Positions 1 through 50,453 of a stretch of 64,000 nucleotides of DNA are shown piece after piece. The notes under the pieces are model-generated. The model was not told where the DNA came from, searched no databases, and saw nothing but the letters and a program-made list of their open reading frames with translations. Source of the DNA: an uncultured Eubacteriales bacterium (lineage in GTDB: Bacteria; Bacillota; Clostridia; Oscillospirales; Oscillospiraceae); assembly GCA_900549405.1 (NCBI GenBank), contig URNZ01000005.1, positions 1-64,000 of the forward strand. Direction: 5' to 3'. Numbering within the stretch: position 1 is the stretch's first letter; every line of letters begins with the position of its first letter. A program made the translations under genes and the position numbers.

Positions 1-55
1 AGCAGAGCAGAGCAGAGCAGAGCAGAGCAGAGCAGAGCAGAGCAGAGCAGAGCAG
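1..55 (+). repeat. Pentanucleotide tandem repeat (AGCAG) x11
   Basis: Eleven perfect copies of AGCAG fill positions 1-55; the array may continue to the left of the window. The unit length is not a multiple of three, so each gain or loss of a unit shifts any reading frame that crosses it. GCAGAG within the array is also the 5' arm of the first downstream hairpin, so that arm survives changes in copy number. Perfect short arrays of this kind are typical sites of slipped-strand mispairing. Confidence 0.95.
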
Positions 56-58
56 TAA
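1..58 (+). CDS. Leader peptide of SLH gene 1 (partial, start outside window)
   Basis: A reading frame enters from the left edge, runs through the AGCAG repeat and ends at TAA (56-58), so the visible peptide is a repeating Ser-Arg-Ala-Glu-Gln pentad ending in AEQ. I call it a leader peptide because the second SLH locus in this window (9573-9617) has a complete short frame at the same place, with its own Shine-Dalgarno sequence, also ending in AE(Q) just before a terminator. The start codon and ribosome binding site lie outside the window, so the frame actually used is unknown. All three frames of the repeat are open and encode the same pentad. The other two frames continue to stops at 130-132 and 141-143, inside the second hairpin. 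Confidence 0.45.
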   Translation, partial: AEQSRAEQSRAEQSRAEQ

Positions 59-79
59 ACAGCCTCTCTGCCGCTTTTT
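47..79 (+). terminator. Leader terminator 1 of SLH gene 1
   Basis: GCAGAG (47-52) pairs with CTCTGC (66-71), followed closely by five T (75-79). The stem is only 6 bp, so this is a modest intrinsic terminator. The same GCAGAG/CTCTGC stem and T tract occur in the leader of the second SLH gene. Confidence 0.5.
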
Positions 80-105
80 GCTGCCTGAATCTAAATATCT
101 GGATG

Positions 106-157
106 AAAAGACCCATTTTCAACACGGGATAACCTCGTGCTGAAAATGAGTCTTTTT
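106..157 (+). terminator. Leader terminator 2 of SLH gene 1
   Basis: A long inverted repeat, arms 106-126 and 136-156, gives 19 base pairs with two mismatches and a 9-nt loop (127-135). It is followed by a T-rich tail. It ends about 35 nt before the start codon of the SLH gene, so an unregulated transcript would largely end here. This implies conditional read-through. Confidence 0.8.
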
Positions 158-192
158 ATATTTTTTCAGAACTTTTTATAGGAGGAAAGTAT

Positions 193-3147
193 ATGAAGAA
201 ACGATTATTGGCGCTGTGCATGTCGCTATGCTTGCTGGTCGGCTTATTGCCGACGGCGGCGTGGGCGGCGGACACACAGGCGGAAAACGCGAGCGGTTTC
301 TGCGATGCAGAGGAGAACGGAGAGAGCGTAAAGTGGGAATTGTCCCCGGATGAGGATGATTCGTCCGCTTATACGCTGACCATTTCCGGTGAAGGTGCGA
401 TGGCGGATTATAATAGCTATGCCAATACACCCTGGTACCAGTATGCAAAGACGAATGGTGCCATTGAAAATGAAAAAGATAAGGACTTTGCGAAGATCGA
501 TAAGGTCATTGTGGAGGGCGGGGTCACTCGTATTGGCAAGAATGCCTTTGCTTTTACCACGGTGACAGAGGCACAAATCGCCGATTCCGTGACTTCCATT
601 GGTAGCGGTGCATTTCTGTGGGACCTGGGGCTGAAAACTATTAGCATCCCGGCGTCCGTGACAAACTTACATGTAGACGAGAACGGGGACTATTATAACT
701 TCTTGGATGGCACGTTTAACCTGGAGTCCATTCAGGTGGGAGATGGGTCCCCCTATCAGGTCGTAGATGGGGTTTTGATCGGTAAGGTCAAAGATAGTTC
801 TGATTTGATGACTATTGTCTGCCCGGATAACCTGGGCGGCGGCGACACGACGGAGGTCGATCTCAGCGGCGTCGCTGATCTGACCCTGGTGGGCAGAACT
901 ACTTTCGGCGGCTGCCGGAATCTGAAGAGCGTTCATCTGCCTGACTCTGTGGAAAAAATCGAGTATAGTTCTTTTATGAAGTGCTATTCTCTGGAGTCCT
1001 TTGTAGTTCCTCCGAAGGTCACGGAACTTGAAAAGTGGACCTTTAGCGGATGCAGCAGCTTGGCTTCTGTGACTTTGAATAATGTTGAAACCATTGGGGC
1101 GCAGGCATTTTCGAAAATTGCGGCTGCGGAGCTTGACAACGCGCCGCATCCTTGCAGCGCTCTGGCTGAGATCGACCTGGGCAAGGTAACGAGCATTGCT
1201 GAAGGCGCTTTCCAGGAAACTGGTTTAACTTCTGTTTCCCTTGGCAGCGGCAGCGTTGGGGCCAATGCCTTTATGAACTGCGAAGCGCTGACTTCCATTG
1301 ACCTGGGCAATGTGACTGAGATTGGGGCAAATGCATTCAGAGGAACGGCAGTCGTAGACCTTACTATTCCCGCGACGGTAACCACGATTGGTGGCAACGC
1401 GTTTATTGACAGCACGGCACTGGAACAGGTGACCATGAGCCAGGATCATTCCAGCAAGATCGGACACAAAAAAGTCGCCCGGGATGGATATTGTATCGGG
1501 ACCCGTTGGTATCAGGACGGAACTCAGGTCCAGGTCAAAACGGTATTTGACAATAATCCGAACACAGAGCAGACCTTTACCTATATGCCGATCTACTTCT
1601 TTGATGTAAAATATGACGGCGTAGAGAATAAGACCACAAGATTCATCTATAATTCCAGAACCATGGAGCTGCTGGATTCCTGGGCAAAGTTGCAGACTGT
1701 ATCGGCGCTTGGCCTGACTGTGCCGGAAGGAAAAATGTTTGCCGGTTGGTCCGTTGCGGCAGACAGCAACGCTATTGTGGCGACAGATGGAGGGGTTCTG
1801 AACGAAAACCCGAGCCCTGAGGCCAGTGTACTTGTAAACACGATTCCCACGCTTACGCTGTATCCCGTTTGGATGACGGAACACAGCCATACGCTGGAGT
1901 TAGTAGACGGTCAGGCGGCTACCTGTACTGAAGCCGGTTGGACAAACTACTATCAGTGTACCTTTGACGGATGCGGCAAGTATTTCGCTGACGACGCCGG
2001 TGTGAACGAGATCATTGATTTGGATGCCTGGAAGCAGGGCGACGGGAAAATCCAGATGGTGGACCACCAGCTTGCCTACCATGAAGCCAAGACCGCAACT
2101 TGCACCGAGGACGGCACCAAGGCTTACTGGGAATGCGACGTATGCCACAAGCTGTTCACCGACGCGAACGGGCAGACCGAGACCACCCAGGAAGCTCTGG
2201 TCGTGCCCGCCACCGGTCACGACTGGAGCAATAAGGACGGCATCTGCAAGACCTGTCAGACCGCCTGTGACCAGCCCCACAACCCCGGCACCACCTGTGA
2301 GGTGTGCGGCAAGGTGACCGCTTCCACCTCCTCCGGTGGCGGCGGCGGTTCCAGCCGCGGCAACAGCTACGCCGTGTCCACCCCCAAGGCGGACAACGGT
2401 TCTGTGTCCGTGAACAACGGAGCCTCTGCCAAGAAGGGCGAAACTGTGACCATCACCGTCAAGCCCAACGAGGGCTATGAGATCGACAAGGTGACGGTCA
2501 CCGACAGCAAGGGCAACACGATCACTGTCACCGATAAGGGCGACGGCAAGTTCAGCTTTGTGATGCCTGACAGCAAGGTGGACGTGAAGGCGACCTTCGT
2601 GAAGAGCGAAGTCCAGCCCGACCAGCCCACTAAAACCACCTTTGTGGATGTCCCTGTTAACAGCTGGTACGCTGACGCTGCTGACTTTGTGGCCCAGCGG
2701 GGTCTGATGTCCGGCGTGGGCGAGAACCTGTTCGGCGGGAATCAGAACACCACCCGGGCCATGCTCATGACCATCCTGGCCCGTATGGACGGCCAGGACG
2801 TGACTGGCGGTTCCACCTGGTACGAGAAAGCCATGAATTGGGCCAAGGCCAACGGCGTGTCTGACGGCACCATGCCCGAGGTGAACATCACCCGCGAGCA
2901 GCTGGCCACCATGCTGTATAGCTACGCCAAGCTGAAGGGCATGAATACGATCCCCAACGGCATGGCTCTGTCCAAGTTCAGTGACGCCGACAGCATCTCC
3001 ACCTGGGCCAGCGAGGCTGTGTCCTGGGCCGCTTACTCCGGCATTATCTCTGGCCGCAGCAACGGCACCGTGGACCCCCAGGCGGGCGCTACCCGGGCCG
3101 AAATGGCCGTGATGCTCCAGCAGTTTGTGGGGCTGATGGAGCAGTAA
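193..3147 (+). CDS. BspA-type leucine-rich-repeat surface protein with SLH anchor
   Basis: A 984-residue secreted protein that probably binds the cell wall through three SLH domains. Residues 1-25 form a signal peptide ending AWA. Residues about 90-430 carry BspA/TpLRR-type leucine-rich repeats (repeated I-G-x-x-A-F motifs). About 450-560 resembles an InlB B-repeat ending LYPVW. About 570-710 has repeated C-x2-C pairs around TCTE-type modules. A Gly/Ser linker (about 712-722) leads to a module beginning YAVSTPKADNG, then SLH domains at about 817-984. The start follows AGGAGG. The N-terminal part looks less GC-rich than the SLH part, which is nearly identical to that of the protein at 9781-11523. 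This suggests a shared anchor with exchanged exposed regions. The ligand is unknown. Confidence 0.9.
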   Translation: MKKRLLALCMSLCLLVGLLPTAAWAADTQAENASGFCDAEENGESVKWELSPDEDDSSAYTLTISGEGAMADYNSYANTPWYQYAKTNGAIENEKDKDFAKIDKVIVEGGVTRIGKNAFAFTTVTEAQIADSVTSIGSGAFLWDLGLKTISIPASVTNLHVDENGDYYNFLDGTFNLESIQVGDGSPYQVVDGVLIGKVKDSSDLMTIVCPDNLGGGDTTEVDLSGVADLTLVGRTTFGGCRNLKSVHLPDSVEKIEYSSFMKCYSLESFVVPPKVTELEKWTFSGCSSLASVTLNNVETIGAQAFSKIAAAELDNAPHPCSALAEIDLGKVTSIAEGAFQETGLTSVSLGSGSVGANAFMNCEALTSIDLGNVTEIGANAFRGTAVVDLTIPATVTTIGGNAFIDSTALEQVTMSQDHSSKIGHKKVARDGYCIGTRWYQDGTQVQVKTVFDNNPNTEQTFTYMPIYFFDVKYDGVENKTTRFIYNSRTMELLDSWAKLQTVSALGLTVPEGKMFAGWSVAADSNAIVATDGGVLNENPSPEASVLVNTIPTLTLYPVWMTEHSHTLELVDGQAATCTEAGWTNYYQCTFDGCGKYFADDAGVNEIIDLDAWKQGDGKIQMVDHQLAYHEAKTATCTEDGTKAYWECDVCHKLFTDANGQTETTQEALVVPATGHDWSNKDGICKTCQTACDQPHNPGTTCEVCGKVTASTSSGGGGGSSRGNSYAVSTPKADNGSVSVNNGASAKKGETVTITVKPNEGYEIDKVTVTDSKGNTITVTDKGDGKFSFVMPDSKVDVKATFVKSEVQPDQPTKTTFVDVPVNSWYADAADFVAQRGLMSGVGENLFGGNQNTTRAMLMTILARMDGQDVTGGSTWYEKAMNWAKANGVSDGTMPEVNITREQLATMLYSYAKLKGMNTIPNGMALSKFSDADSISTWASEAVSWAAYSGIISGRSNGTVDPQAGATRAEMAVMLQQFVGLMEQ

Positions 3148-9486: not shown

Positions 9487-9516
9487 TCCCGATTCCCCCA
9501 AATCCCTCTTTCCCCA

Positions 9517-9545
9517 TTGCAATGCTCCCAAAACTGAGATATAAT
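9517..9545 (+). promoter_or_regulatory. Promoter of the SLH gene 2 leader
   Basis: TTGCAA (9517-9522), 17-bp spacer, TATAAT (9540-9545). Transcription from here would make a leader of about 230 nt before the SLH start codon, including the leader peptide and both hairpins. Confidence 0.8.
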
Positions 9546-9572
9546 AACAGGCAGAAAAAGGAGTTGACGGCA

Positions 9573-9617
9573 ATGGGCTGCGCGGGCTACACTGAAGCAA
9601 GCAAGCAAGCAGAGTAA
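9573..9617 (+). CDS. 14-residue leader peptide of SLH gene 2
   Basis: ATG at 9573 is preceded by AAAAAGGAG with 9-nt spacing, an excellent ribosome binding site about 10 nt into the predicted transcript. The frame encodes MGCAGYTEASKQAE and stops with TAA at 9615-9617, inside the first terminator hairpin's loop. The second half is encoded by four AGCA units. There is no run of one amino acid's codons, so classic amino-acid attenuation is unlikely. A change of one repeat unit moves the stop to 9680-9682 or 9691-9693, both inside the second hairpin. It is too short for standard gene calling. Translation is inferred from the strong site. Confidence 0.6.
   Translation: MGCAGYTEASKQAE
9596..9611 (+). 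repeat. Tetranucleotide repeat (AGCA) x4 in leader peptide
   Basis: Four perfect AGCA units lie within the leader frame. Four is not a multiple of three, so gain or loss of one unit changes the leader frame. The repeat differs from the AGCAG unit of locus 1 but sits at the same place relative to the stop and the first hairpin. Confidence 0.85.
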
Positions 9618-9638
9618 AGCAGTGCTCTGCCCTTTTTT
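9609..9638 (+). terminator. Leader terminator 1 of SLH gene 2
   Basis: GCAGAG (9609-9614) pairs with CTCTGC (9625-9630) and is followed by CC and six T (9633-9638). The leader stop codon lies in the loop. Same stem as at 47-71. Confidence 0.6.
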
Positions 9639-9667
9639 GCTGTCCAAAAGTTTATACAGACGACCAC

Positions 9668-9719
9668 AAGAGACGTTTTTGAACATGGAGTGACCATGCT
9701 TAGAATGCGTCTCTTTTTT
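9668..9719 (+). terminator. Leader terminator 2 of SLH gene 2
   Basis: AAGAGACG (9668-9675) pairs with CGTCTCTT (9708-9715). An inner stem CATGG/CCATG (9684-9688 with 9694-9698) closes a 5-nt loop, and six T follow. It lies about 60 nt before the SLH start codon and after the promoter, so it should attenuate the gene unless prevented from folding. Confidence 0.8.
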
Positions 9720-9780
9720 GCGCCCATGGAGAGACCGGGCTGGCCCTTGCCAGCGAAACAATAGAAACGGAGGAAACGAC

Positions 9781-11523
9781 ATGAAGAAAAAACTCTTGTC
9801 CCTTCTGCTGTCATGTGCACTGTGCCTGACGCTGCTGCCTGCGGCGGCGCTGGCGGCGGACGGGACAACTGCGAAAGTGACCACGGCGGACGAATTGACC
9901 GCCGCAGTGACAGAGAAAACAGTGTCCACCATTAAGCTGGGGGCGGATATTAACGTCACCAGCACCATTGGCATCAGACGCACCGTCAACCTCGACCTGA
10001 ACGACCATGTACTGAGAATGACCGGTGATGGCAATGTCATTGAGGTCGGGAATGGTGGCGATTTGACGCTGGTGGACGATGCACAGACGAAGACACCAAA
10101 GTACTTTGACAGGGGAGACAATGGTCTGTGGACGCTGCGGACGGATGATACTGAAACAGAATATACCATTACTGGCGGCGTCATCACCGGCGGTAAGAGT
10201 AAAACTGCCGCCGGTTACCGCACCGGAGGTGGTGTGGATGTGTATGGCGGTACGTTCACCATGACCGGCGGCAGCATCGTGGGCTGCGTAGCGACTGGCG
10301 ACGCCCACTTGGGCAGCAGCGGCGGCGGTGTGTGTGCAGAGGACGGTACTTTTTATGACGAAGTGATAAATCGCGGTACGATCAGGAATGGCACCTTCGA
10401 TGGCGCGGTGACGAATGTCTACGATGGTACCATCAGCGGCGGTACATTTAACGGGGAGCTGACGAATCACGGAACCATCGCCGACAGCGCTTACGTCACC
10501 GTGACCTTTGATTTAAAGGACGGCAGTGACGCGGCAGCGCAGAAGGTGGTAAAGGGACAGAAGGTCGCTGAGCCCAATGACGTTGCCAAGGAGGGGTATA
10601 CGCTCGCATGGTGTGCGGACGAGGACTGCACCCAAACGTATGATTTCGATACCCCCGTGACAGCGGATGTGACCCTCTATGCCAAGTGGACGGCCAACAG
10701 CTCCGGCGGCTCTTCCGGCGGCGGCGGTAGCCGCAACAACAGCTACGCCGTGTCTACCCCTAAGGCGGATAACGGCAGCGTCACCGTGAACAACGGCAGC
10801 ACCGCCAAGAAGGGCGACACCGTGACCATCACCGTGAAGCCCGACGAGGGTTATGAGATCGACAAGGTGACTGTGACCGACAGCAAGGGCAACAGCATCA
10901 CCGTGACCGACAAGGGCGATGGCAAGTTCAGCTTCGTGATGCCAGACAGCAAGGTTGACGTGAAGGCGACCTTCGTGAAATCCGAGGTCAAGCCCGACCA
11001 GCCCAGCAAGACTGCCTTCGTGGACGTGCCTGAAAACAGCTGGTATGCCGATGCCGCCGACTTTGTGGCCCAGCGGGGCCTGATGTCCGGCGTGGGCGAG
11101 AACCTGTTCGGCGGCGGCCAGAACACGACCCGCGCCATGCTGATGACCATCCTGGCCCGCATGGACGGCCAGGACGTGACTGGCGGCGCAACCTGGTATG
11201 AGAAGGCCATGAATTGGGCCAAGCAGACCGGCGTGTCCGATGGCACTATGCCCGAGGTGAACATCACCCGGGAGCAGCTGGCCACCATGCTGTATAGCTA
11301 CGCCAAGCTGAAGGGTGTCGACACCACCCAGGGCGGCATGGCCGTGCGGGAGTTCAACGACTACGACAGCATCTCCGCCTGGGCCAATCAGTCCATGGCC
11401 TGGGCCGTGAATGCTGGCATCCTGTCTGGCCGGGGCAACAACACCCTGGCTCCCACAGCTGGCGCCACCCGTGCCGAAATGGCCGTGATGCTCCAGCAGT
11501 TTGTGGGGCTGATGGAGAAGTAA
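9781..11523 (+). CDS. SLH-anchored surface protein with beta-helix-like repeats
   Basis: A 580-residue secreted protein. The start at 9781 follows GGAGG; an in-frame extension upstream lacks a signal peptide. Residues 1-23 are a signal peptide ending ALA. About 50-235 contain Gly-rich strands such as GGTFTMTGGSI typical of parallel beta-helix surface proteins. An InlB-like B-repeat ends LYAKW near 305. A Gly/Ser linker (about 306-319), the YAVSTPKADNG module and three SLH domains (about 414-580) follow; these last parts closely match the protein at 193-3147. The DNA of the shared part is also very similar, suggesting recent duplication or recombination. Expression is probably controlled by the leader hairpins. 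Confidence 0.9.
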   Translation: MKKKLLSLLLSCALCLTLLPAAALAADGTTAKVTTADELTAAVTEKTVSTIKLGADINVTSTIGIRRTVNLDLNDHVLRMTGDGNVIEVGNGGDLTLVDDAQTKTPKYFDRGDNGLWTLRTDDTETEYTITGGVITGGKSKTAAGYRTGGGVDVYGGTFTMTGGSIVGCVATGDAHLGSSGGGVCAEDGTFYDEVINRGTIRNGTFDGAVTNVYDGTISGGTFNGELTNHGTIADSAYVTVTFDLKDGSDAAAQKVVKGQKVAEPNDVAKEGYTLAWCADEDCTQTYDFDTPVTADVTLYAKWTANSSGGSSGGGGSRNNSYAVSTPKADNGSVTVNNGSTAKKGDTVTITVKPDEGYEIDKVTVTDSKGNSITVTDKGDGKFSFVMPDSKVDVKATFVKSEVKPDQPSKTAFVDVPENSWYADAADFVAQRGLMSGVGENLFGGGQNTTRAMLMTILARMDGQDVTGGATWYEKAMNWAKQTGVSDGTMPEVNITREQLATMLYSYAKLKGVDTTQGGMAVREFNDYDSISAWANQSMAWAVNAGILSGRGNNTLAPTAGATRAEMAVMLQQFVGLMEK

Positions 11524-48538: not shown

Positions 48539-50401
48539 TCACTGCCACAGCATGTGCAGGCTGTCCATCATGGCATACAGCATCCCGGCGGCAGTCTCCC
48601 GGGTGGCCAGGTCCTGGGGCTGGAGGTCGCCCACCAGAGCGCCCAGCTGGTCCATGATCCAGGCGGGCCTTTGGGCCCAGGGGGAGAAGTCCTGATAGTC
48701 GGCCAGGGAGATATCCGTCTTGCCGTTCAGCTCCTCCGCCGACATGCTGGCCCACACGGCCACCGAGGACAGGATGGTGGTCATCTGCTCATAGGTGATG
48801 GTGTCGTCCGGGCGGAAGGTCCCGTCCCCCATGCCGGAGACAAAGCCCCGGGCGGCCATGGCGGACACGGCCTTGTTATACCAGGCGTCGTCGGCCACGT
48901 CGGAGAAGGACAGGTTCTGTCCCTCGGGCAGGTCCAGCACGTTGGAGAGCATGGCGCAGAACTCGGCCCGGGTGATGGCATTGGTGGGGCGGAAGGTGCC
49001 GTCCTCATAGCCCTCCAGCAGGCCGAAGGTGCTCAGAGTGTCGATCTCGGTGGCAAAGGGGCTGTCCGCCGCGTCGGCAAAGGTGCGGGCGTGGAAGTCA
49101 AGCCCCAGGCTCTCCGCCAGCTTGGCGGGGGTCACGGCGTTCCAGCCGCTGTTGCGCTCCCCCTCGTACAGGGCGGCGGAGGGGGGCAGGGCCTCCAGCA
49201 GCTCGGTAAAGGCGGCTCGGTTGTCCCCGGACAGGGCCTCGTCCCGGCTGATGTAGAAGGTCCAGCCCGCCAGCTCCAGCTTATAATAGCCCGCGTTGCG
49301 GCTGGGCTCCGGCTGGGTGAGGAGCATGGCGGCGGTCTTCGTATTCTCCTTGGACATCACCAGGGTGGGGATCACGCCCATCCACTGGTTGGTGGTGCCG
49401 TCGGGGGAATAGAAGCGATAGACGGTGATCTTCATGGCGTCCCCGTCGAACAGGTCCTCGGTGTTGGCGCTGTTGAAGATCATCTGGGCGATGCCCTTGC
49501 CAAAGGTGGTCTGACCGATGGCGATGCCAAAGCCCAGGTCCCGGGCGTCGGCGGAGAACAGCTCGGCCCCGCTGGCGGAGTAGTCACTGGTGAGGATGAT
49601 GAGGGGCTTGTCCGTCAGGTCGGGGCAATATTGGGTGGTGCCCACAAAGCGATAGTTGCCGTTGGCGTCCCGGAAATAGACCATGATGTCGCTGCCCACA
49701 AACAGACCGGCGGACACGGCGGCGGCATCGGCATCGCCGCCGGGGTTGCTGCGCAGGTCCATGATCCAGGCGGCCACGTCAGGCTCCAGGGCGGTCAGGG
49801 CCTCCTCGATGGTGTCGCCGGTGGAGTCGCCAAAGCTGATGCACTCGATGACCCCGGCATTGCCCTCCTTGTCATAGGTGACGATGGGAATGACCACCGC
49901 CCGGCGCTGCATGGTGAAGTCCCGCACCTGGCCGTCGGAGCGGCGGATGGTCAGGGTGACGGTGGAACCCTCTTTCCCGGTGACGGCGCTGCGCACGTCG
50001 GTGGTGGCGGTCATGTCCACGCCGTCCACGGCGATGATCCGGTCACCGGCCTGAAGCCCGGCCTCCTTGGCGGGGGAGTTGGGCAGGATGGACAGGACCA
50101 GAAAGCCGTCGTCATAGGCGGTCTGCACCGTGATGCCCACGCCCACCAGGGTCTCGCCGTTGACGGAGTCGGTGAACTGCTGATACTGCTCGGCGGTCAT
50201 GTAATAGGTGTAGGGGTCGCCCAGGGCCTCCAGGATCTCGTCCAGGGAGTCCAGAGACAGGATGCTCTCAGGGATCTGGTCCACATAGTGGTCCCGCAGC
50301 AGCTGCCGGGCCTCGTCCAGGGTGAGGGCGGCGGCGGGGGCGGCGGATAGGGAGAAGGTGAGGCTGAGAGCCAGCAGGGCGGACAGAAGTTTACGTTTCA
50401 T
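48539..50401 (-). CDS. S41 C-terminal-processing protease with SLH repeats
   Basis: A 620-residue secreted protease. Start at 50401 (MKRKLLSALLA) follows GGAGAA, giving a signal peptide (1-25). A PDZ domain (about 75-160: VGVGITVQ, AGDRIIAVDG) leads to the S41 catalytic domain, with SASGAELFSADARD (nucleophile Ser about 280) and FGKG (general base Lys about 305). Three SLH motifs occupy about 440-620, more diverged than those of the two surface proteins. Such a protease is likely to process proteins at the wall surface. It lies 68 bp upstream of the CobW genes and may share their transcript. Confidence 0.9.
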   Translation of the reverse strand: MKRKLLSALLALSLTFSLSAAPAAALTLDEARQLLRDHYVDQIPESILSLDSLDEILEALGDPYTYYMTAEQYQQFTDSVNGETLVGVGITVQTAYDDGFLVLSILPNSPAKEAGLQAGDRIIAVDGVDMTATTDVRSAVTGKEGSTVTLTIRRSDGQVRDFTMQRRAVVIPIVTYDKEGNAGVIECISFGDSTGDTIEEALTALEPDVAAWIMDLRSNPGGDADAAAVSAGLFVGSDIMVYFRDANGNYRFVGTTQYCPDLTDKPLIILTSDYSASGAELFSADARDLGFGIAIGQTTFGKGIAQMIFNSANTEDLFDGDAMKITVYRFYSPDGTTNQWMGVIPTLVMSKENTKTAAMLLTQPEPSRNAGYYKLELAGWTFYISRDEALSGDNRAAFTELLEALPPSAALYEGERNSGWNAVTPAKLAESLGLDFHARTFADAADSPFATEIDTLSTFGLLEGYEDGTFRPTNAITRAEFCAMLSNVLDLPEGQNLSFSDVADDAWYNKAVSAMAARGFVSGMGDGTFRPDDTITYEQMTTILSSVAVWASMSAEELNGKTDISLADYQDFSPWAQRPAWIMDQLGALVGDLQPQDLATRETAAGMLYAMMDSLHMLWQ

Positions 50402-50418
50402 GGCGTTCTCCTTATTGA

Positions 50419-50453
50419 CACACGCCGGATGCCGAAACGGCACCCGGCGTGTG
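50419..50453 (-). terminator. Hairpin after purA
   Basis: CACACGCCGG (50419-50428) pairs with CCGGCGTGTG (50444-50453), with TGCCG/CGGCA inside. There is no good T tract, so it may be a weak terminator or an RNA-stabilising hairpin. Confidence 0.5.

Follow-up and report, generated by a model that had tools for sequence, protein, structure and literature searches.

A repeat-bearing leader peptide before a predicted terminator: a candidate phase-variable attenuator recurring upstream of SLH surface protein genes in Clostridia

Introduction

In the closest described system, GCAGA repeats within the frame of a leader peptide control the pil1 pilus of Streptococcus gallolyticus (Danne et al. 2014, PMC3894217). 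According to that report, leaders with 22+3n repeats stop early and give mostly-low populations, while other counts allow the hairpin to be reached and give high expression; isolates in which 28 nt or more separate the leader stop from the terminator retain a mixture that is mostly low. Removal of the leader start lowered pil1 expression, removal of the terminator raised pilB 11-fold, and, against the authors' expectation, a mutant carrying stops in every frame came out slightly higher than the low state (PMC3894217). The pil3 leader of the same species carries 13 such repeats (PMC3894217). The sequence-only reading of the locus analyzed here knew of no described system for S-layer proteins in which a slippage repeat and a leader peptide are joined to tandem terminators. 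The claim of novelty is not supported: pil1 unites repeat, leader peptide, and terminator, though with one terminator and for pili (PMC3894217). By title and abstract, this paper was the only match in our literature search on that combination, with subscription papers mostly outside the search. Searches on SLH phase variation, repeats in gut Clostridia, and the Pseudoflavonifractor S-layer gave none by title or start of abstract among the matches listed.

Two further classes of regulation bear on the locus. One is ribosome-mediated attenuation, as at pyrBI, where the formation of a terminator depends on a translating ribosome. The trp attenuator, discussed in the pil1 report, is alike in this respect (PMC3894217). 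The signal at trp and pyrBI is an amino acid or a nucleotide, whereas here it would be the count of a DNA repeat. The other is the classical phase variation of Neisseria, Haemophilus, Campylobacter, and other bacteria, in which slippage of short repeats located in promoters or coding regions switches surface genes, as is also discussed there (PMC3894217). In contrast, the frame shifted here would be that of the leader and not that of the surface gene, and the output would be transcriptional read-through.

Results

Anatomy of leader 2

The window, as we call the whole 64-kb stretch of DNA that was analyzed, looks to be from a bacterium related to the gut genus Pseudoflavonifractor. A penicillin-binding protein encoded next to the locus has its best match (73%) in Pseudoflavonifractor phocaeensis, and the arginine genes match genomes G001 (P. 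phocaeensis) and G041 at the DNA level (84 to 89%). The leader of interest, which we refer to as leader 2 (9517 to 9781), is flanked on one side by this penicillin-binding protein gene, which is divergently oriented, and on the other by SLH gene 2 (9781 to 11523, plus strand). SLH gene 2 encodes a signal peptide (identified by eye), a pectate-lyase-like adhesive domain, List-Bact and InlB-B repeats, and SLH domains.

All parts of leader 2 are on the plus strand. Promoter P1 (TTGCAA-17-TATAAT, 9517 to 9545) matches the consensus and would transcribe the whole leader; none of 300 shuffles of the upstream 130 bases contained an equally good match. A predicted ribosome-binding site, AAAAAGGAG (9555 to 9563), precedes the leader frame MGCAGYTEASKQAE, which runs for 14 codons from the ATG at 9573 to the TAA at 9615 to 9617. 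Within this frame is the tandem repeat (AGCA)x4 (9596 to 9611), whose unit length is not divisible by three and which is free of stops in all frames. Hairpin T1 (9609 to 9630), whose 5' arm is partly made of the end of the repeat, is followed by CCTTTTTT, with a T-run to 9638. Terminator T2 (9668 to 9719) consists of a hairpin (9668 to 9715; loop at 9689 to 9693) and a T-run. These positions of promoter, ribosome-binding site, leader frame, and two hairpins agree with those of the sequence-only reading on recheck. Beyond its observation of leader 2 lie a second promoter-like core, P2 (TTGACG-18-TACACT, 9564 to 9593), which is the most conserved part of the leader and whose transcription start would fall on the repeat, and the repeat of a further leader at 1 to 55.

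Changing the repeat count virtually reproduced exactly the stops proposed earlier: 9615 with the four units present, 9680 with five, and 9691 with three. Counts of one and seven returned the stop to 9615, so that the pattern recurs modulo three. The stops at 9680 and 9691 are both inside T2, while the early stop (n = 4) lies 50 nt upstream of it. Folding set T2 apart (region 9660 to 9725, z = -5.0; no equally good folding in 200 shuffles). Hairpin 1 was unremarkable (38 nt, z = -1.86; 10 of 200 shuffles as good), and a 91-nt stretch of leader 2 did not fold better than its shuffles (z = +0.47).

The earlier proposal that the present frame stops before the 3' arm of T1 stands, but T1 would not then be free to form, because a ribosome stopped at 9615 would itself cover hairpin 1. 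For this reason, and because several relatives described below have a weak T-run, or none, behind hairpin 1, terminator 2 rather than terminator 1 is the likely gate of leader 2. The weak T-run also argues that tandem terminators, which had been put forward as part of the switch, are not its essence.

By sequence, leader 2 shares with pil1 a tandem repeat in a leader-peptide frame and a premature terminator before the gene for a surface structure, features described for both pil1 and pil3 (PMC3894217). The repeat unit is not divisible by three; P1, AAAAAGGAG, and the ATG all precede the repeat; a predicted intrinsic terminator (T2) separates leader and gene; and one frame stops far before that terminator while the others stop in or next to it. 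The arrangement of stops resembles that of pil1, where one frame likewise stops early while the remaining two end within the hairpin or close to it (PMC3894217). Leader 2 differs from the pil1 leader by an extra hairpin and T-run at the end of the repeat. No run of one residue, as expected of an amino-acid attenuator, occurs in MGCAGYTEASKQAE, and Rfam gave no match at gathering scores anywhere in the window, so that no riboswitch, T-box, or other curated RNA leader was detected.

Taken together, leader 2 is probably a phase-variable attenuator in which the repeat count sets whether ribosomes arrive at T2 and, hence, whether the SLH gene is transcribed. The transcript would begin at P1. With four units, translation would stop 50 nt before T2, T2 could form, and the gene would be OFF. 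Gain or loss of a single unit would keep the frame open through hairpin 1 and end it inside T2; a ribosome there would cover the loop or the 5' arm, prevent termination, and turn the gene ON. One frame in three would thus be OFF and two ON. The pil1 rule carries over directly, and by it leader 2 as assembled should be OFF because its stop lies 50 nt before T2.

A second leader in the window

Perfect repeats with 4- to 5-base units and at least four copies occur twice in the 64 kb, each time in the leader of an SLH gene; shuffled windows had a mean of 0.01 such repeats, and 2 of 200 shuffles contained any. The second one is (AGCAG)x11 (1 to 55, plus strand), which runs off the start of the window. 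Its unit is a rotation of the GCAGA of pil1 (PMC3894217). It belongs to leader 1, whose start lies outside the window and which contains hairpin T1 (47 to 71, plus strand; 5' arm made of repeat) and a long terminator T2 (103 to 159, plus strand). SLH gene 1 (193 to 3147, plus strand) follows, with BspA-type leucine-rich repeats and SLH domains. The three exit frames of leader 1 stop at 56 (early), 130 (T2 loop), and 141 (T2 3' arm). A third SLH gene (48542 to 50443, minus strand), whose product is an S41 peptidase that also carries PDZ and SLH domains, has no repeat leader by the scan for perfect repeats across the 64 kb. Judged by sequence, leader 1 shares the layout of leader 2, with a longer repeat that would be more prone to slippage. 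The slippage proposed earlier for leader 2 is upheld as to the repeat, which is real, but four units of four bases are short and the slippage rate may be low. Leader 1 is the better candidate for slipping, and leader 2 may slip only rarely.

Relatives of the module

P. phocaeensis has no leader beside its corresponding penicillin-binding protein gene, the DNA of 9500 to 9800 matched neither its genome nor the second-best genome, and the SLH region matched a plasmid collection over nothing more than one 41-base stretch. Across the 64 genomes of the genus of G001, the hairpin-1 pattern matched in five, in no case with a repeat. Upstream of SLH matches in G041, G001, G130, and G202 (60 regions, among the matches listed), no such leader was found. 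In 177 loci plus the window, only the window's two leaders combined a repeat of 15 bases or more with a terminator no farther than 130 bases away; this survey covers the matches listed, and the longest frame taken at a locus was not always the SLH gene. Two loci upstream of relatives' SLH genes, L121 and L134, have leaders that resemble cobalamin riboswitches by eye, with three terminators and one, respectively.

All searched genomes are one per species. The string (AGCAG)x4 was present in 6 of 400 genomes of the P. phocaeensis family, and these matches share a common module. A pattern combining TTGACR-16/20-TAYRCT with the start of a repeat found L423 in the 64-genome genus, with the AAGC unit of the window, and L425 and L437 in the order; these three are also named L452, L450, and L451, respectively. 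A sequence model of the head and the first repeat units added two members, with (CAGG)x13 and (CAGA)x8, each cut by a contig end. A model of the head alone found L476, a decayed member that retains the head and hairpin 1, has no repeat array and no T2, and lies directly before a surface-protein gene; it is possibly a locked-on relic.

Matches were sifted as follows. The head-plus-repeat model gave 21 matches in 19 of 400 genomes, of which 8 in 7 genomes were kept (G071 with two, G066, G156, G296, G336, G299, and G452); of the other 13, nine look like ordinary promoters, and L468, L471, L472, and L474 were left out. The pattern search matched 22 of 394 genomes, with 4 kept (two already known) and the rest judged by the matched string, and 4 of the 64 genomes, with 1 kept, L422 inspected and dropped, and two judged by string. 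The head model matched 5 of 87 genomes of the family of G738, with G738 and the decayed L476 kept and three dropped, and 3 of the 64 genomes, with 1 kept and two dropped after inspection.

The module is also present in two viral contigs. Repeat matches in viral contigs comprised 84 stretches, of which 80 were scanned; inspection covered those that showed either 7 or more units or a promoter-like sequence, and 2 were kept. In viral contigs the leader-1 and A-type patterns had no match, while the B-type pattern recovered the 2 already known; another viral search with at least 120 matches is outside the element count. Viral repeats also occur in other settings: L262, L270, and L281 carry 10, 9, and 24 copies of AGCAG right behind an ATG, within closely similar flanks, possibly as a frame-switching gene, and L227, L234, L240, L273, L285, and L290 have (AGCAG)n of differing length, seemingly inside coding frames, the frame of L290 resembling by eye the start of a DNA methyltransferase.

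The total comes to 17 elements: the two of the window, 13 from genomes, and two from viral contigs. Twelve, including leader 2, are complete, with a head of about 45 bp, a short repeat, a hairpin, and a strong terminator. The contigs of L214, L459, and L460 end inside the repeat or just past it; because contigs end at the repeats in this way, assemblies can conceal the state of a switch.

These relatives bear on whether leader 2 still switches. It may be a decayed or locked-OFF copy, with only leader 1 still varying, as its four units against at least 11 in leader 1 and the existence of a decayed member such as L476 would suggest; we regard this as possible but rather unlikely, since all parts of leader 2 and its frame layout are intact.

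The head and its two promoter-like sites

Of the 12 complete heads, 11 have an ATG or GTG at a distance of 9 to 10 bases from where TTGAC[AG] begins, although the near-identical heads of L208, L209, L255, and L283 among them reduce the number of independent cases; the start codon was not a criterion in any search that yielded these heads. In the remaining head, that of L211, an ATG lies further upstream and follows AAAGGAG. At the position of AAAAAGGAG, most relatives have a purine run, a feature also seen before the TTGACA of ordinary promoters among the model matches. P1 is clear in the window, L452, L211, L212, L213, L208, L255 (99 bases upstream), and L459, and weak in L450, L451, and L283; in L460 it is placed before a terminator-like hairpin, and the search of the heads of L209, L210, and L476 did not find it. 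Pairing between the head and the stretch behind hairpin 1, suspected by eye, was clearly longer than in shuffles in none of 12 elements (lowest fraction, 0.06).

The P2-like core (TTGACR-17/18-TAYRCT) was present in all 14 aligned heads, five of which came from a pattern or model that required it; the six genome heads found via the repeat alone (L208 to L213) carry it too. In most heads it overlaps the leader start codon, whereas the described pil1 promoter lies upstream of the leader (PMC3894217). This conservation, L208 to L213 included, together with the missing or weak P1 of several elements, would fit P2 being the working promoter. RNA from P2 could not be translated as the leader because its start would fall on the repeat, and the repeat would then act through RNA length, structure, or stability. 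We consider this unlikely, as it leaves unexplained why the start codon is kept and why one frame stops early and two late. P2 may give a terminated RNA, a basal level of expression, or a pause that helps coupling.

The frame layout recurs

We followed each of the three exit frames to its first stop in the 12 complete elements and leader 1 (13 in total); outside this test are L214 (no head), L459 and L460 (ending in the repeat), and L476 (no T2). In all 13, one exit frame stops 22 to 65 nt before T2, and each of the other two has its first stop inside T2, beyond it, or no more than 3 nt ahead of it. A hairpin of -17 to -36 kcal/mol is predicted ahead of a T-rich stretch in each. Exactly two frames reach T2 in 6 of the 13 elements at a margin of 0 nt, in 11 at 5 nt, and in 12 at 28 nt, and multiplying the shuffle probabilities of 8 lineages, which were grouped by eye, gives 0.0003, 0.0008, and 0.0018 at margins of 10, 15, and 20 nt, with the margin chosen after the data had been seen. 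Among the 12 complete elements, the encoded frame is the early-stopping one in five (leader 2, L423, L210, L213, and L283) and reaches T2 in seven. These results support, at the level of sequence, a frame-dependent layout that recurs across different repeat units and diverged sequences. The proposal of a slippage switch is supported in part, with the assembled frame of leader 2 predicted to be OFF.

The layout also speaks to whether the repeats are neutral microsatellites in untranslated leaders whose terminators simply damp expression. The four units of leader 2 are a short tract, as such a view would allow, but both such repeats of the 64 kb sit in SLH leaders, and 8 lineages share the head and the layout although their units differ, which makes neutrality very unlikely.

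Repeat units are exchangeable

Four units occur across the elements, AGCAG, AAGC, CAGG, and CAGA, as against the GCAGA of pil1 (PMC3894217). All four are stop-free in every frame, a property that is weak alone, given that 81% of 4-mers and 76% of 5-mers are stop-free too. L209 mixes AGCAG with a 7-base unit, and L423 has under three units. Unit lengths of 4 to 5 were partly selected by the pattern searches, and only L459 and L460 (CAGG and CAGA) came from the model. Because the unit changes while head and layout are kept, length modulo three appears to be the selected feature. Copy number differs even between close sequences: L212 has 7 units and L450 has 10, and the 476 bp that follow the repeat are 95.6% identical, while upstream of the repeat the two are alike over 44 bp only; they are different sites in two genomes, and G071, the genome of L212, is outside the 87 genomes of the family of G738.

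TRAP binds GAG or UAG triplets separated by spacers of 2 to 3 bases. A repeat-binding protein of this type could read the GAG triplets that (AGCAG)n presents every five bases, but we dropped this highly improbable candidate because the AAGC repeat of leader 2 and the AAGC, CAGG, and CAGA arrays of relatives lack any GAG/UAG series.

Genes behind the leaders

The next long frame on the same strand encodes an SLH protein or another large secreted protein in 11 of the 13 elements. SLH genes lie behind eight: both window genes, L450, L451, L452 (two frames), L211, L212, and L213. Ig-like or beta-helix proteins whose ends are outside the sequence at hand lie behind L255 and L283, and a signal-peptide protein (by eye) with no Pfam match, cut by the contig end, lies behind L208. 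L209 has no surface gene in reach, and L210 reaches its contig end. A small helix-turn-helix gene lies between T2 and the SLH gene in two loci (L212, 5445 to 5705; L213, 4543 to 4863); because it is on the opposite strand, read-through RNA would be antisense to it. Serine-recombinase-like frames (by eye) stand directly before the leader and surface gene of L255 and L283, and a tyrosine recombinase (PF00589) is upstream of the leader of L210.

L212 and L213 are 78.7% identical over about 47 bases before the repeat and 94.5% identical over the 109 bases after it (T2 included); further upstream there is no match, and similarity returns near the start of the surface gene (81.8% over 148 bp). L255 and L283, unlike the pairs L212/L213 and L212/L450, are alike over 1.5 kb upstream (88%). 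The islands of similarity suggest that the module can move as a unit.

Discussion

The sequence anatomy, the frame layout, and its recurrence in related genomes describe a pil1-like arrangement in Clostridia. We infer that the leader is translated, that its repeat slips in growing cells, and that a ribosome at T2 would act as the antiterminator. Such a mechanism is likely but known in principle from pil1; the experiments belong to the Streptococcus system, and the switch described here is predicted from its sequence. The new part, as read from the genomes, is a diversified module that recurs before Clostridia SLH surface proteins and has exchangeable repeats, whereas pil1 serves sortase pili with one terminator (PMC3894217).

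Tentatively, and with somewhat more doubt than confidence, we picture a portable cassette of head (about 45 bp, bearing the promoter-like core and the start of the leader), exchangeable repeat, and terminator that passes between surface-protein genes of Clostridia, partly beside site-specific recombinases. Unrelated adhesin-like proteins would thus acquire stochastic expression with one frame in three OFF, and the repeat could be replaced because only its length modulo three would matter.

From sequence, then, the pil1-type switch of one Streptococcus appears as a recurring SLH module of Clostridia. If it works, clones would bear mixed surfaces, and a single repeat count, taken modulo three, would tell whether a surface gene is ON or OFF.
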